A stretch of 23,994 nt of DNA from a virus: positions 1-23,994 of the IMG/VR virus record IMGVR_UViG_3300048838_000002; one strand, given 5' to 3'. A program made the position numbers and the translations under genes. A model generated the notes under the pieces. The model was not told where the DNA came from. It ran no database searches and saw only the letters and a list, made by a program, of their open reading frames with translations. The first letter of the stretch is position 1, and each line of letters opens with the position of its first letter. Below, piece by piece: positions 13,832-17,194 of this stretch.

Positions 13832-14459
13832 CAGTCTTTCCTTTTCCACAGGACGCTCAAAGCCTCGTCCTCCATGATCCGAACCGAGCGCTCCATGCGC
13901 TCGTATTCGGCGGGGTCCAATTTCATGCGGTCGAGCTTGTGGAACAGGACGTTGTAGTCCAGCCCGACAGGCCCGCTAGAGCCCATGCGCCACTGCGTAC
14001 ACAGATCCATGAAGACCGTGCAGGGCGCCATGTTCGGCGGCCAGAGTTCGACAGGAGGGCCGCTCGCTTCTTCTACCGTCAACCCCAGCGACATCGCTTC
14101 TTCCTCTGTCGGCGGGGTGGTGTAGATGGCGCGGGCGGCCTCCCTCAGTTTTTTTCCAGCGCCTTCGTGTGTTCTTCCCAATAGCCCTCGACCAACCGCC
14201 CCAACGCGCCGATGTACGTGCGGTCGAGCAACCGCATGTTCTCTTCGTTGAAGGGGTCGGTCAGTTCCCACCCGGACACCATCTCCATCGCCGTCTTGAC
14301 GATGTCCTGCTCCTTGGCGCGCTCCAACAGGGACGCCAGTTCGTCGCGGTCGCGGAAGCGGAACGTGAATTCCACCTCCGGCTCCTTGGACTCGCCGGGC
14401 ACGGGAATCTTCACCTTCGCTTTGAAGGTGGGGTCTGGTTGAAGCTTGAACTTTGCCAC
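13831..14459 (-). CDS. Tail assembly chaperone, frameshifted long form (lambda gpGT analogue)
   Basis: A -1 slip at 14148-14154 joins the 104-residue chaperone to a 105-residue extension that starts LREAARAIYTTPPTEEEA and ends VLWKRKD, about 209 residues in all. The extension has no ribosome-binding site of its own and its open frame depends on the slip. It includes PPVELWPPNMAPC and a helical end (LDRMKLDPAEYERMERSVRI). In lambda the T part binds the tape measure protein while the G part recruits tube subunits. The TGA overlaps the tape measure ATG (TGATG), which couples translation. The coordinates cover both frames; the real product requires the shift. Confidence 0.85.
14145..14459 (-). 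CDS. Tail assembly chaperone, short form (lambda gpG analogue)
   Basis: The 104-residue protein (MAKFKLQPDPTFKAKVKIPV at its start) has a beta-rich N-terminal part, then a helical acidic region with RDELASLLERAKEQD and a TYIGALGRLVEGYWEEHTKA ending. Its place between tail tube and tape measure genes, and the slippery site at its last codons, identify it as the gpG-type chaperone. This binds the tape measure protein and recruits tail tube subunits. The start is the GTG at 14459, with AGGAG about 7 nt upstream; an upstream frame to 14600 falls inside the endonuclease gene and is rejected. The stop TGA directly follows the frameshift heptamer. Confidence 0.85.
   Translation of the reverse strand: MAKFKLQPDPTFKAKVKIPVPGESKEPEVEFTFRFRDRDELASLLERAKEQDIVKTAMEMVSGWELTDPFNEENMRLLDRTYIGALGRLVEGYWEEHTKALEKN
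14148..14154 (-). other. Programmed -1 ribosomal frameshift site A AAA AAC
   Basis: In the chaperone frame the codons read GAA AAA AAC TGA, which gives the canonical heptamer A AAA AAC at the very end of the short protein. A -1 slip continues CTG AGG GAG into an open frame of 105 codons ending at 13831. This is the strongest known class of bacterial -1 slippery sequence and the normal mechanism for G/GT chaperones. Confidence 0.9.
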
Positions 14460-14476
14460 TGGGCCTCTCCTGATGT

Positions 14477-14977
14477 TTAGATGGTGCAGCCAGCGTGCAG
14501 GCGGCGCTTTGCCGCCACATAAGCAGCGGATGCTTCTTCCGGTGTATCGAACAACCCGACGCGATGTTCGACACCTTGCTGAGTGATCCTTGCGCGCCAT
14601 TTGCGGCTATGGATGTGCCACGACACGCCGGCAAGTCCAGACGACTTATTGGCGCCGCGAACACGCTTGCGGTTTTCGTTGTTGACGTGCCGCTCTACGT
14701 CACGCAGATTCGCCAGGCGGTTGTCTGTGCGAATCCAATTGATGTGATCTATGTCGTTCGACGGCCACACTCCATGCGTATAAAACCAAGCCAGACGATG
14801 CGCAAGATACTTCTTGCAATCTACGCTGATGTAGACGTACCAGGCGCCGCTGACACATCCCGCTAGCGATCCGATGCCAACCCCGCGCCTACCCCTAATC
14901 CAGCGAAATTCGCCGGTTTCGGAGTCGTAGGAGAGCACCTCGCGTAAGCGCGCGGCGGTAAGATTGGCAGTAGCCAT
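14477..14977 (-). CDS. HNH homing-type endonuclease with C-terminal AP2-like DNA-binding domain
   Basis: The 166-residue protein shows the HNH_3 core: AHRLAWFYTHGVWP (59-72), IDHINWIRTDNRLANLR (76-92; D77, H78, N80, N86) and HVNNENR (97-103). An AP2-like segment follows: SSGLAGVSWHIHSRKWRAR (112-130), then GLFDTPEEASAAYVAAKRRLH. This pairing is typical of free-standing phage HNH endonucleases, which nick or cut DNA at intron-less sites and spread by homing. The ATG has GAGGTGC 4 nt upstream. The gene lies between the intact tail tube and tail assembly chaperone genes, so it interrupts no gene. The C-terminal ten residues (KRRLHAGCTI) resemble those of the other nuclease, although the two proteins are otherwise unrelated. 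Confidence 0.9.
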   Translation of the reverse strand: MATANLTAARLREVLSYDSETGEFRWIRGRRGVGIGSLAGCVSGAWYVYISVDCKKYLAHRLAWFYTHGVWPSNDIDHINWIRTDNRLANLRDVERHVNNENRKRVRGANKSSGLAGVSWHIHSRKWRARITQQGVEHRVGLFDTPEEASAAYVAAKRRLHAGCTI

Positions 14978-15053
14978 GAAGCACCTCTATTGCTGATTGG
15001 TCAGAGGCCGGCAACGATTCACAGTCGTTTGCCGGCCTCGCTATTTTGCGCCG
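14978..15053 (-). promoter_or_regulatory. Structured leader A of the HNH_3/AP2-type gene
   Basis: On the transcribed strand: GCGGCGC, AAAATAG, a stem-loop at 15039-15004 (GAGGCCGGC/GCCGGCCTC, one bulged A, then AACGA/TCGTT; 14 bp in total, loop CTGTGAA), and 26 nt to the ATG containing GAGGTGC. Spacer and ribosome-binding site match leader B at 20 of 26 positions. In this copy CCTCT at the stem's 3' foot could instead pair with AGAGG of the ribosome-binding site, giving a possible on/off switch. That alternative pairing is much weaker in leader B. Confidence 0.7.
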
Positions 15054-15071
15054 CCCGATAGTTTTTGTCTA

Positions 15072-15719
15072 TCAAGCACTGTACCGAACCGGCTCGTTCA
15101 GGAACCGCACCGATCCGGCCAAGCGCATCAGCGTGTTCACCTCCATGGTCGGCGTCTTGTTGATGGACACATACCCAACGTAGTAAAGCTTGGAGTTGTT
15201 CGCCAGCGTCACGCGAAGGCATCGCGCAACACGGTCGTCGTTGGCTGCGACGACAGCGGTATAGCCAGGCAGCGACGGGTCATCGCCCAACTCGAAGTTG
15301 AAGCCACCGCCGGACTTGATCGTCGGGATTTCAACCTCGTTGTCGGCCTCAAGGAACTGGTACGTCAGGAACCGCTGTTCGCCGCCCGTCGAAGACGTGG
15401 ACAGTACTTGCGCCATCTGCGTGAACGTGGTGACTTCCTGCACCGTACCCAAGCCACTGCCGGGCGGGTAAATAGTGGTGCTGGTCGTGTCCAGACCTTC
15501 CAGCTCAAAGGTGTTGTCGGTCTTGTTATCGACGCGGAACGCCTTGCCGTTGATGCGCGACCAGCCGGAAACGACGATGACGATGTCGCCATCCGCGTAA
15601 CCGTGGGCCGTGCAGGTGACAACGCAAACGCTTGCGTTGGTGAGAACAGTCGTGGCTTGAGCCGAGCCAACTGCCGAACCGATTGAAATGATGGAACCAT
15701 TGGGTAAGCTAACTGCCAC
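15072..15719 (-). CDS. Tail tube (major tail) protein
   Basis: The 215-residue protein forms the stacked rings of the tail tube. It opens MAVSLPNGSIISIGSAVGSA and then has a small beta domain (VVTCTAHGYADGDIVIVVSGW). The core carries TTFTQMAQVLSTSSTGGEQ and the EQRFLTYQFLEAD segment, a glycine-rich turn KSGGGFNFEL, and an ending with TPTMEVNTLMRLAGSVRF. This resembles siphophage tail tube proteins of the Phage_tail_3 type. The GTG start at 15719 has GAGG 7-8 nt upstream. The gene stands alone: terminators lie immediately before it and an endonuclease leader immediately after it, unlike its tightly coupled neighbours. Confidence 0.85.
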   Translation of the reverse strand: MAVSLPNGSIISIGSAVGSAQATTVLTNASVCVVTCTAHGYADGDIVIVVSGWSRINGKAFRVDNKTDNTFELEGLDTTSTTIYPPGSGLGTVQEVTTFTQMAQVLSTSSTGGEQRFLTYQFLEADNEVEIPTIKSGGGFNFELGDDPSLPGYTAVVAANDDRVARCLRVTLANNSKLYYVGYVSINKTPTMEVNTLMRLAGSVRFLNEPVRYSA

Positions 15720-15747
15720 TTTGACACCTCGTTAAGAGCGACGGAAC

Positions 15748-15777
15748 AAAAAAAGCCGCCCGTGTTGCCAGGGCGGC
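15748..15777 (-). terminator. Intrinsic terminator just upstream of the tail tube gene
   Basis: The transcribed strand has a 7-bp stem GCCGCCC/GGGCGGC with a 9-nt loop and seven T residues. Only 28 nt separate the T-run from the tail tube GTG. The layout mirrors the hairpin before the capsid gene (GGGCGGCTTTTTT followed by about 27 nt and the start). Confidence 0.82.
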
Positions 15778-15786
15778 CATGAAAAC

Positions 15787-15803
15787 GCCGCCTTGCGGGC
15801 GGC
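15787..15803 (-). terminator. Weak terminator-like hairpin
   Basis: The transcribed strand has a 6-bp stem GCCGCC/GGCGGC with loop CGCAA, followed by GTTTTC. The short, interrupted T-run makes termination doubtful. It lies between two better terminators. Confidence 0.45.
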
Positions 15804-15825
15804 TCAGGAGACTCGGTTCAGACGT

Positions 15826-15850
15826 AAAAAAGCCCGCACTAGGCGGGCTT
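15826..15850 (-). terminator. Intrinsic terminator after the NinX-like gene
   Basis: The transcribed strand has a 7-bp stem AGCCCGC/GCGGGCT (8 bp if the outer A-T closes) with loop CTAGT, followed directly by six T residues. It begins 22 nt after the stop of the NinX-like gene. Confidence 0.85.
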
Positions 15851-15871
15851 GCTGGGGGTTGACCTTCGCGG

Positions 15872-16303
15872 TCAGATGTCTATCTCTTTGCCAATCTTGC
15901 GCGCCACGTAGCAGCGCATGGCCGCCACCAGCGGCGTCGGGCCAATCGCGTGCGGCTTGTACCCAGGAAGCGGCTCATCGATGTAGTGTCCAAAAACCTC
16001 GTAGTACGCATGCCATTGCGGCGTCGTATCGCGACCGTCGTATCCAGTGAATGCGACGATGCCAATCCGCTCGCGCTCAATGATCGGCCCGCCTTCATGC
16101 CACTCTCTCGACGGATGAAACTGCTGGCAAATCATGCGGTGCCCCCACGAGGTGTCGCTAGGGCTGTAGGTTGGCGGCATTGCGGTGCTTTCGGCCGGGT
16201 ATAGCCATACCTCGTCGCCCTCGATCTTGGGCGTGTATCCCTCGGCCATCGCCACCGCCGCATCCAGCAGCGCGCCTTCCAACTCGGCAACCTTGCGCTT
16301 CAT
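15872..16303 (-). CDS. DUF2591 / NinX-like phage protein of unknown function
   Basis: The 143-residue protein has the hallmark ends of the DUF2591 (P22 NinX-like) family: KVAELEGALLDAAVAMAEG (4-22), a mid-protein GGPIIERERI (71-80), and a final GPTPLVAAMRCYVARKIGK (121-139). The function is unknown. Such genes normally sit among early or nin-type genes, so the location inside the tail operon is odd. It starts in an ATGA overlap with the endonuclease stop and is closed off by three consecutive hairpins, two of them good terminators. It was probably brought in together with the nuclease. Confidence 0.75.
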   Translation of the reverse strand: MKRKVAELEGALLDAAVAMAEGYTPKIEGDEVWLYPAESTAMPPTYSPSDTSWGHRMICQQFHPSREWHEGGPIIERERIGIVAFTGYDGRDTTPQWHAYYEVFGHYIDEPLPGYKPHAIGPTPLVAAMRCYVARKIGKEIDI

Positions 16304-16764
16304 ATCGTGCAGCCTTCGTGATGCTTGCGTTTTAGGTATTCGATGTAGCGCATGACGCTATCAAGTGAGTCGCCCATTCGACCGAGATTTACGTTGCACG
16401 CATGGCACAGAATGCCTCGCACAGCGCCAGTCTCGTGGCAATGGTCGACATGAAACGTGTCCCATCTGCCGCCCGGTTTAGAAGTTCCACAAATTGCACA
16501 ACCCCCGCCCTGCGTTTCCAGAAGGGTCGAGAAGCTTTCGTCAGTCATTCCGTACCGCTGCTTCAACTTGCTGCGTCGCGAGTGTTCTTTTGTCGGCTTC
16601 GGCTTCGGACGTCCGACCATGTAGGCCGCGTGGTGCTTTACCCGACAGGGCGTGCACTGGCCTCGACGGCCATCTCGGTACGCCGCTGATAGGCCGAACT
16701 TCTCGACGGGCAAAGAATGCCCGCAAGAGGAGCACGTTTTCTGTGGAAAAATGTCTGAAGCCAT
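16300..16764 (-). CDS. HNH endonuclease, endonuclease VII-like, with N-terminal zinc ribbon
   Basis: The 154-residue protein carries an N-terminal four-cysteine motif (C11-x2-C14 and C37-x2-C40). A basic linker follows, then a recombination-endonuclease-VII-type core: GGGCAICG (C89, C92), HVDHCHETGAVRG (D107, H108, H110) and LCHACN (C120, C123, N124). These residues form the zinc-stabilised beta-beta-alpha metal finger that cleaves DNA. Small phage copies are usually free-standing mobile (homing) nucleases, whereas T4 endonuclease VII resolves branched DNA. The ATG at 16764 is chosen because the GAGGTGC site lies 4 nt upstream. The stop overlaps the next gene's ATG. The protein ends GCTI, as does the unrelated HNH protein at 14477-14977. 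Confidence 0.88.
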   Translation of the reverse strand: MASDIFPQKTCSSCGHSLPVEKFGLSAAYRDGRRGQCTPCRVKHHAAYMVGRPKPKPTKEHSRRSKLKQRYGMTDESFSTLLETQGGGCAICGTSKPGGRWDTFHVDHCHETGAVRGILCHACNVNLGRMGDSLDSVMRYIEYLKRKHHEGCTI

Positions 16765-16838
16765 GATGCACCTCGAATGCAGACTGGTTAGAGCCCGCAA
16801 GGTGTTGCTAGCACTTCGCGGGCTCGTCTATTTTGCCG
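16765..16838 (-). promoter_or_regulatory. Structured leader B of the endonuclease VII-like gene
   Basis: On the transcribed strand it reads, in order: GCGGC, AAAATAG, a stem-loop at 16825-16791 (8 bp GAGCCCGC/GCGGGCTC, then six more positions with one A-C mismatch; 7-nt loop CTAGCAA), and exactly 26 nt to the ATG including the ribosome-binding site GAGGTGC. Leader A at 14978-15053 has the same elements in the same order, with a different stem sequence and a loop CTGTGAA. Twenty of the 26 spacer positions match. The stem is not followed by a T-run, so termination of upstream transcripts is unlikely to be its only role. Confidence 0.7.
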
Positions 16839-16840
16839 CA

Positions 16841-17194
16841 TTAACTCCAAAAACTGAAATCTTGGTGCGTGCCGTACAGCGGCGGCGCCGTGTCGTCTTC
16901 GTAGGCGGCAATGAACGCCCCAAGCACGTAGGCTTTGAGTGCGCTTGTCACCAGCGCGCCTTCGGCGGATCGCGCAAGGTTGTTCGCCGATTGGCGCGTC
17001 GTCGTCCAGCAACTGATCTGAATGCGCGCGTTCTTCTTGCCGACGACAGTCGCTTCTAGGAAGTTCTCTGCCGCGCCGCCGACCTGCTGGTACACGATGA
17101 AAGGCTTTGCGGTGCCGTAGGGCGCGAACTCAGGGAACACTCGTCCAGACACCAGCGATGTCAGCGCGGCAACGATGTCTGATTCGAGACTCAT
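16841..17194 (-). CDS. Tail completion/terminator protein, DUF3168 family
   Basis: The 117-residue protein opens MSLESDIVAALTSLVSGRVF and continues FAPYGTAKPFIVYQQVGG. It has a central strand ARIQISCWTTTRQSANNLA and a C-terminal AAYEDDTAPPLYGTHQDFSFWS. This is the order seen in DUF3168, whose members cap the tail tube or join it to the head. It follows the gp10-like gene with an ATGA overlap. The next gene downstream in most relatives is the tail tube gene; here an endonuclease cassette and a NinX-like gene intervene. Confidence 0.82.
   Translation of the reverse strand: MSLESDIVAALTSLVSGRVFPEFAPYGTAKPFIVYQQVGGAAENFLEATVVGKKNARIQISCWTTTRQSANNLARSAEGALVTSALKAYVLGAFIAAYEDDTAPPLYGTHQDFSFWS

Follow-up and report, generated by a model that had tools for sequence, protein, structure and literature searches.

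A structured leader common to unrelated phage nuclease genes, a candidate portable expression module

The virus record IMGVR_UViG_3300048838_000002, analysed over its 23,994 bases (hereafter, the window), contains a minus-strand module of siphophage-like head and tail genes, within which lie two nuclease genes preceded by closely similar leaders. The first gene encodes a protein of 166 amino acids (aa) that starts with MATANLT, ends with KRRLHAGCTI and matches Pfam HNH_3 (1.5e-10), AP2 (1.1e-6, under the AP2 curated cut-off) and the HNH endonuclease group phrog_99 (1.3e-56); it possesses the HNH catalytic domain of free-standing phage HNH homing endonucleases. The second encodes a protein of 154 aa, starting with MASDIFP, which matches Pfam Endonuclease_7 (7e-24 over residues 66-145) and phrog_2633 (4.3e-38) and carries the zinc and DH residues of endonuclease VII in CAIC, HVDH and CHACN motifs; its stop codon overlaps the start of a NinX-like gene. 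These profile matches uphold the view, expressed in an earlier note on this DNA, that the two genes belong to different protein families. The genes and the parts of their leaders are as follows.

14477..14977, minus: HNH_3/AP2 (AP2-HNH) endonuclease gene
14978..15003, minus: AP2-HNH leader, 26-nucleotide (nt) linker and ribosome-binding region UGACCAAUCAGCAAUAGAGGUGCUUC; read directly, conserved columns in alignment A3
14980..14994, minus: AP2-HNH leader, P2 hairpin (AGCA/UGCU); RNA fold, P2 covaries across leaders
15004..15039, minus: AP2-HNH leader, P1 hairpin with loop CUGUGAA; RNA fold, P1 base covaries across leaders
15043..15048, minus: AP2-HNH leader, -10-like box CAAAAT; consensus scan and -10 logo across leaders
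16300..16764, minus: endonuclease VII-like gene
16303..16332, minus: C-terminal tail KRKHHEGCTI of the endonuclease VII-like protein, probably grafted from an AP2-HNH gene
16765..16790, minus: endonuclease VII leader, 26-nt linker and ribosome-binding region UAACCAGUCUGCAUUCGAGGUGCAUC; read directly
16767..16781, minus: endonuclease VII leader, P2 hairpin (UGCAUU/GGUGCA) with the Shine-Dalgarno (SD) site at 16774-16769; RNA fold, covariation
16791..16825, minus: endonuclease VII leader, P1 hairpin with loop CUAGCAA; RNA fold, covariation
16830..16835, minus: endonuclease VII leader, -10-like box CAAAAT; position relative to P1 as in the -10 logo

The leader consists of four parts, namely a -10-like box, a hairpin of about 14 pairs (P1), a conserved linker and a second hairpin around the ribosome-binding site (P2), after which the gene opens with ATGGCT. 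On the minus strand, the AP2-HNH leader comprises CAAAATAG, P1 (15039-15004), the 26-nt spacer (15003-14978) and ATGGCT, and the endonuclease VII leader comprises CAAAATAGA, P1 (16825-16791), the 26-nt spacer (16790-16765) and ATGGCT. The common leader claimed in the earlier note was thus borne out, the spacers being identical at 20 of 26 positions and both copies having GAGGTGC, a 7-nt loop (CTGTGAA or CTAGCAA) and ATGGCT. Some of its details required correction: the hairpins stand, whereas perfect 14-base-pair (bp) stems do not, the AP2-HNH stem having one bulged A and the endonuclease VII stem one A.C mismatch and one G.T pair; GCGGC is unconserved at other leaders and is not part of the element; and AAAATAG, present in both copies, is best read as a version of a promoter -10 element that appears as TATAAT in loci L003, L006 and L170. 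In the AP2-HNH leader the SD site GAGGUG (14987-14982) lies inside P2, and TAGACA (15066-15071) is situated 17 nt upstream of the -10-like box (9 of 12 matches in the consensus scan). No -35 box was matched in the endonuclease VII leader, and a strict -35/-10 scan did not call its -10 box. The 7-nt P1 loops read CUNNNAA in 14 of 28 cases, including the window copies and many loci, and resemble a tRNA anticodon loop; to read P1 plus ACCA as tRNA-like or as an RNase P feature was abandoned, since ACCA is placed two bases past the end of the stem. Base-pairing between AGCC in the linker and GGCU at the start was also rejected, as it is attractive in some leaders and impossible in L215 and L272.

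A strict pattern derived from the 26-nt spacer retrieved 11 loci from IMG/VR viral contigs, of which 10 have the full leader and lie before HNH genes, the remaining one being a chance match. A second version of the leader was seen upstream of HNH relatives, and a scan for it (CTCTAACCAAGCC...GAGGT) returned 43 loci, nearly all with the -10-like box, hairpin and ATGGCT where they would be expected. A covariance model (R1) trained on 50 of the leaders gave 62 matches in 59 sources, those outside its training set comprising extra copies in L259, L265, L272 and L258 as well as L215, L117 and Rhizobium phage RHph_N3_2. Two further leaders were found in named phages, one in phiGT1 and one before a second RHph_N3_2 gene. 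Leaders outside the training set, named phages included, scored expectation (E) values of 3e-15, 2.8e-11 and 2.7e-8; the window copies, which both belonged to that set, scored 4e-15 and 1e-11. Viral contigs and named phages together yielded about 60 leaders through pattern scans and the covariance model, so that the search proposed in the earlier note, for further genomes with the leader before endonuclease genes, was successful. Blastn of the window leader against GenBank phages gave no match. Relaxing the patterns for viral contigs and GTDB genomes brought in only chance matches, which lacked the hairpin architecture. Neither of the two patterns had an exact match in 754 genomes from two bacterial classes, and an R1 search of two genomes, also empty, was uninformative. 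In Rfam 15, window positions 14400-17000 produced only matches below the gathering score and 11 leader loci produced none. Leader-nuclease units were seen to crowd together, with three in 2.5 kb of L259 (294-2818) and four in 7.3 kb of L265 (1343-8595).

A nuclease-type or integrase open reading frame (ORF) lies directly behind the leader in all 60 cases examined, one of them cut by a contig end. BLAST grouped these ORFs into nine clusters: zinc-ribbon HNH (32), HNH_3/AP2 (20), phrog_374 HNH (2) and six singletons (HNH, HNH_5, NUMOD4, Endonuclease_7, LAGLIDADG_3 and Phage_integrase), although HNH_3-type cores occur in both large clusters, so that nine clusters do not amount to nine unrelated folds. 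The LAGLIDADG_3 match is weak (E 0.0016, under the cut-off), and the sequence AAYIAGLIDADGTVTV reads as the motif; a LAGLIDADG-type nuclease behind one leader is therefore probable. The leader is not restricted to nucleases, since a tyrosine integrase in L269 (237-1231; Phage_integrase, 1.7e-19) stands behind a full leader (E 1.3e-12); within what was searched, it appears to be restricted to mobile-type genes. One unit, L265:5985-6260 (minus), is frameshifted and apparently chimeric, a NUMOD4-type start running in another frame into a zinc-ribbon-HNH-like end, with the leader still present. No leader turned up at the other endonuclease VII relatives, apart from one weak match in L063 (E 0.57). 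The leader is also optional for these nuclease families, because related HNH genes in Xanthomonas phage Valrath, Sinorhizobium AP-16-3, Rhizobium 16-3, RHph_X2_25, RHph_Y25, RHph_N2 and MW202483 are not preceded by it.

Both hairpins are supported by strong covariation. RNAalifold predicted two helices for 50 leaders, with two-sided changes at all ten pairs. On 59 distinct leaders the covariation score was 0.722 in an alignment that had been fitted to the model, compared with 0.204 (standard deviation 0.019) for shuffled and at most 0.103 for slid controls, and it was 0.657 in a plain MAFFT alignment not fitted to the model. P2 forms around the SD site with changing arms (ACCU/AGGU, CGAAC/GUUCG, ACAC/GUGU, UCGUU/AACGA and CGAUC/GAUCG), which places the SD site inside a covarying RNA helix, as in T4-type sequestration of the ribosome-binding site, and G-U pairs are used by both helices. 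The claim that the stems diverge in sequence while keeping their pairing is supported by this test.

Upstream of P1, the leaders share an extended -10 logo (T 0.54, G 0.73, n, T 0.90, A 0.98, n, A 0.90, A 0.97). In 40 of 59 leaders its hexamer stops 7 nt short of the first pair of P1; TGnTAnnA is found in 26 of the 59, against 1.9 in shuffles. Given this fixed distance, the transcript would start at the base of P1. According to a crude ORF calling, many leader units are antisense to both neighbours, which is clear by annotation for RHph_N3_2, and a portable promoter of their own would therefore make sense. The SD site is less accessible in the leaders (0.29) than in other genes of the same loci (0.42, p 4e-4).

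Comparison of occupied and empty sites indicates that the leader belongs to the inserted unit, because it is absent where related phages are empty: in L174, in L186, L190 and L192, in L274 and L275, which are reciprocally empty for each other's unit, and in pCB2047-C as compared with phiGT1. The AP2-HNH site is occupied in the window, L172 and L173 and empty in their close relative L174, and L175 (3689-3778) retains a remnant in which the -10 region is fused to the last 30 codons of AP2-HNH. The endonuclease VII site is empty in L172-L175, which are contiguous across it; a whole AP2-HNH unit lies at the equivalent junction in L260, where L186, L190 and L192 are empty. In Sulfitobacter phage phiGT1, a 669-bp unit sits exactly between two genes that abut in pCB2047-C. 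The earlier note had raised the possibility of the same hairpins at sites lacking the endonuclease; in these comparisons the hairpin is absent where the nuclease is absent. At readable borders the -10 box is preceded by some 10-35 nt of the unit, whose other end falls at the stop codon or no more than about 20 nt from it. Neither terminal repeats nor a target-site duplication, as would mark a transposon or insertion sequence, was seen at five mapped borders inspected by eye. In phiGT1 itself, the annotated start of phiGT1_12 (L304:1201-1767) at 1318 is probably 117 nt too late, as the leader puts it at 1201 and yields a 188-aa protein.

Exchange of the nuclease behind a retained leader is visible at one site. 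L253 and L257 have flanks 88.6% and 84.3% identical on either side and an identical leader, and they differ from just after ATGGCTAA to approximately the stop codon, one contig having an AP2-HNH ORF there and the other a zinc-ribbon HNH ORF. At other sites, leader pairs from different families are up to 94% identical, and the nearest leader comes from the same gene family in only 35 of 60 cases. The C-terminal GCTI, described in the earlier note as a shared cassette end, is indeed present in both window proteins; as a general end it does not hold, being an AP2-HNH feature, and an HxGC-type tail occurs in none of 80 other endonuclease VII relatives. AP2-HNH proteins of L094 and L099, both without the leader, also have a GCTI-type tail, that of L099 (KRKLHEGCTI) resembling the tail of the window endonuclease VII. 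GCTI is conserved as protein and not as DNA, since its codons vary at silent positions among relatives. In L176, just after 1680 and at the same junction as the window endonuclease VII, a decayed remnant reading KRKLHQGCTL-stop corresponds to an AP2-HNH tail. The tail likeness and this remnant suggest that endonuclease VII replaced the inside of an AP2-HNH unit.

Leader conservation with covarying hairpins, linkage to nuclease-type genes, absence from empty sites and differing ORFs behind the same leader at one site are all seen in the sequences. We consider it likely that they reflect an expression leader which works at the RNA level and is portable, moving with unrelated mobile nucleases and being exchanged between them. 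Each window gene would then supply the nuclease ORF of a small mobile unit, whose other parts are a promoter and a structured leader RNA. Transcription from the extended -10 box would make P1 the extreme 5' end of the mRNA, a position from which it may protect the transcript; the conserved single-stranded linker would connect P1 to P2, which may limit or time translation around the SD site, immediately before AUG GCU. Such a module would allow expression at any landing place and in either orientation, and its retention while the ORF is replaced would explain why unrelated nucleases have it in common. Promoter activity, start site, mRNA protection, translation control and active homing are predictions. 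Several points weigh against this proposal. The search patterns came from HNH genes, and the nuclease linkage may be overstated; the -10 hexamer mostly closes with A instead of T; the orientation counts depend on the crude ORF calling; and many members of the same nuclease families are without the leader, which is thus not essential to them. Furthermore, P2 is short, and SD accessibility is not clearly under that of shuffled controls (0.33, p 0.14). Translation control by P2 would be the weakest step of the mechanism, because its effect on accessibility is not clearly beyond composition. What the earlier note chiefly proposed, a mobile unit in which the nuclease is exchangeable behind one structured leader, has strong support from the roughly 60 leaders, nine clusters, covariation, leaderless empty sites and the L253/L257 pair; its suggestion that mobility depends on recognition of the leader sequence found no support, the evidence pointing to RNA-level expression.

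It is unlikely that the leader serves mainly as a stretch of homology at which recombination swaps nuclease ORFs, with expression secondary: exchange breakpoints do fall at ATGGCTAA and near the stop codon, and leader similarity is largely decoupled from gene family, but such a role needs sequence identity, whereas the P1 and P2 arms diverge with pairing kept and the -10 logo and SD site hold fixed places. That the leader acts as DNA, its hairpin end being recognised by a recombinase or by nucleases as in hairpin-ended insertion sequences, would agree with its position at the 5' end of the inserted unit with which it travels, and with the one leader before a tyrosine integrase. This is quite improbable, as unrelated nucleases would require one common recognition site, no matching 3' hairpin, terminal repeats or target duplication was seen at the mapped borders, P2 encloses the SD site and both helices use G-U pairs.

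Very improbable, too, is a role of P1 as a terminator or insulator against transcription into or out of the unit; P1 is a strong GC-rich hairpin at the unit border, with a short T-rich stretch after it on the other strand, yet no U tract follows it on the coding strand, neither P1 was called as a terminator on either strand, and the conserved linker and SD hairpin would be left unexplained. Phages commonly have GC-rich hairpins, GAGG sites and ATGGCT starts, but a chance arrangement of these in the same order is hardly credible and already contradicted, since independent searches recover the full architecture before nuclease-type genes and leaders outside the training set reach the E values given above. 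Returning to the portable leader, a bolder and rather doubtful extension would make its RNA a dedicated chassis, recognised by a host or phage factor through the invariant UNACC linker and the CUNNNAA-type loop and captured by nucleases and an integrase; the leader would be the lasting unit of spread and the nuclease its replaceable cargo.

Known systems resemble the leader in part. In ompA-type 5'-terminal stem-loops, the transcript is protected by a hairpin with which the mRNA begins; P1, for which protection is predicted only, differs in being mobile, in covarying before many genes and in being followed by an SD hairpin. The leader has in common with the HEARO/OMEGA RNAs of IscB-type nucleases the linkage of a structured RNA to a mobile HNH gene; those RNAs are long guides that go with a single nuclease family and are present in Rfam, whereas the leader is about 70 nt long, common to unrelated families and without an Rfam match. 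T4-type control of I-TevI, I-TevII, I-TevIII, segB and Aeh1 mobE combines nearby promoters with an RNA hairpin involving the ribosome-binding site, the structures being gene-specific and the promoter placed so that late transcripts lack the hairpin; seven free-standing T4 endonucleases have been called promoter-less cassettes (PMC2988022). The nearby promoter and ribosome-binding-site hairpin of nuclease genes are alike here, but the -10 logo, and with it the predicted promoter, lies upstream of both hairpins and is not one from which late transcripts would lack them, and one leader serves unrelated nucleases, which argues against nuclease-specific autoregulation of the I-TevI type (PMC2988022). 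The gene seg43(25) of Aeromonas phage 25 has a stable hairpin just upstream of its ribosome-binding site, without sequestering it (PMC2988022); this hairpin is similar to P1, but it belongs to a single gene of another nuclease family, with no second SD hairpin or sharing described. Domain swapping has been reported among phage homing endonuclease genes, in a text without mention of promoters or hairpins (PMC10448857); nuclease genes recombine in both cases, through protein domains there and as whole ORFs behind a non-coding leader here. Neither Rfam nor the literature searched, which comprised open-licence papers only and leaves novelty unproven, contained a description of this leader; a common control element behind which phage nucleases are swapped is apparently undescribed.

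Nuclease genes of the free-standing type rank among the most common mobile genes in phages, and little is understood of how such a gene, once newly inserted, comes to be expressed if there is no local promoter; a promoter-plus-RNA module that is portable and common to unrelated nucleases would offer an answer. The leader also provides a sequence tag for finding and bounding such units, behind which whole ORFs can be replaced, and the named phages phiGT1 and RHph_N3_2 make it testable at the bench.

In transcription order, the surroundings of the two units encode an HK97-gp10-like protein, the tail terminator, the endonuclease VII-like protein, the NinX-like protein, the major tail protein, the HNH_3/AP2 protein and the tail assembly chaperone. 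The neighbouring features are as follows.

14145-14453, minus: tail assembly chaperone gene
15072-15719, minus: major tail protein gene
15872-16303, minus: NinX-like gene
16841-17194, minus: tail terminator gene
15817..16840 (approximate), minus: insert at the tail terminator / tail tube junction, containing leader, endonuclease VII, NinX-like gene and terminator-like hairpin; L172-L175 are contiguous here

The endonuclease VII insert of the window is larger than the other units, adding the NinX-like gene and a terminator; an intrinsic-terminator-like hairpin at 15830-15850 ends the NinX-like gene region. Since the NinX-like gene is absent from the relatives L172-L175, it came in with the endonuclease VII insert.

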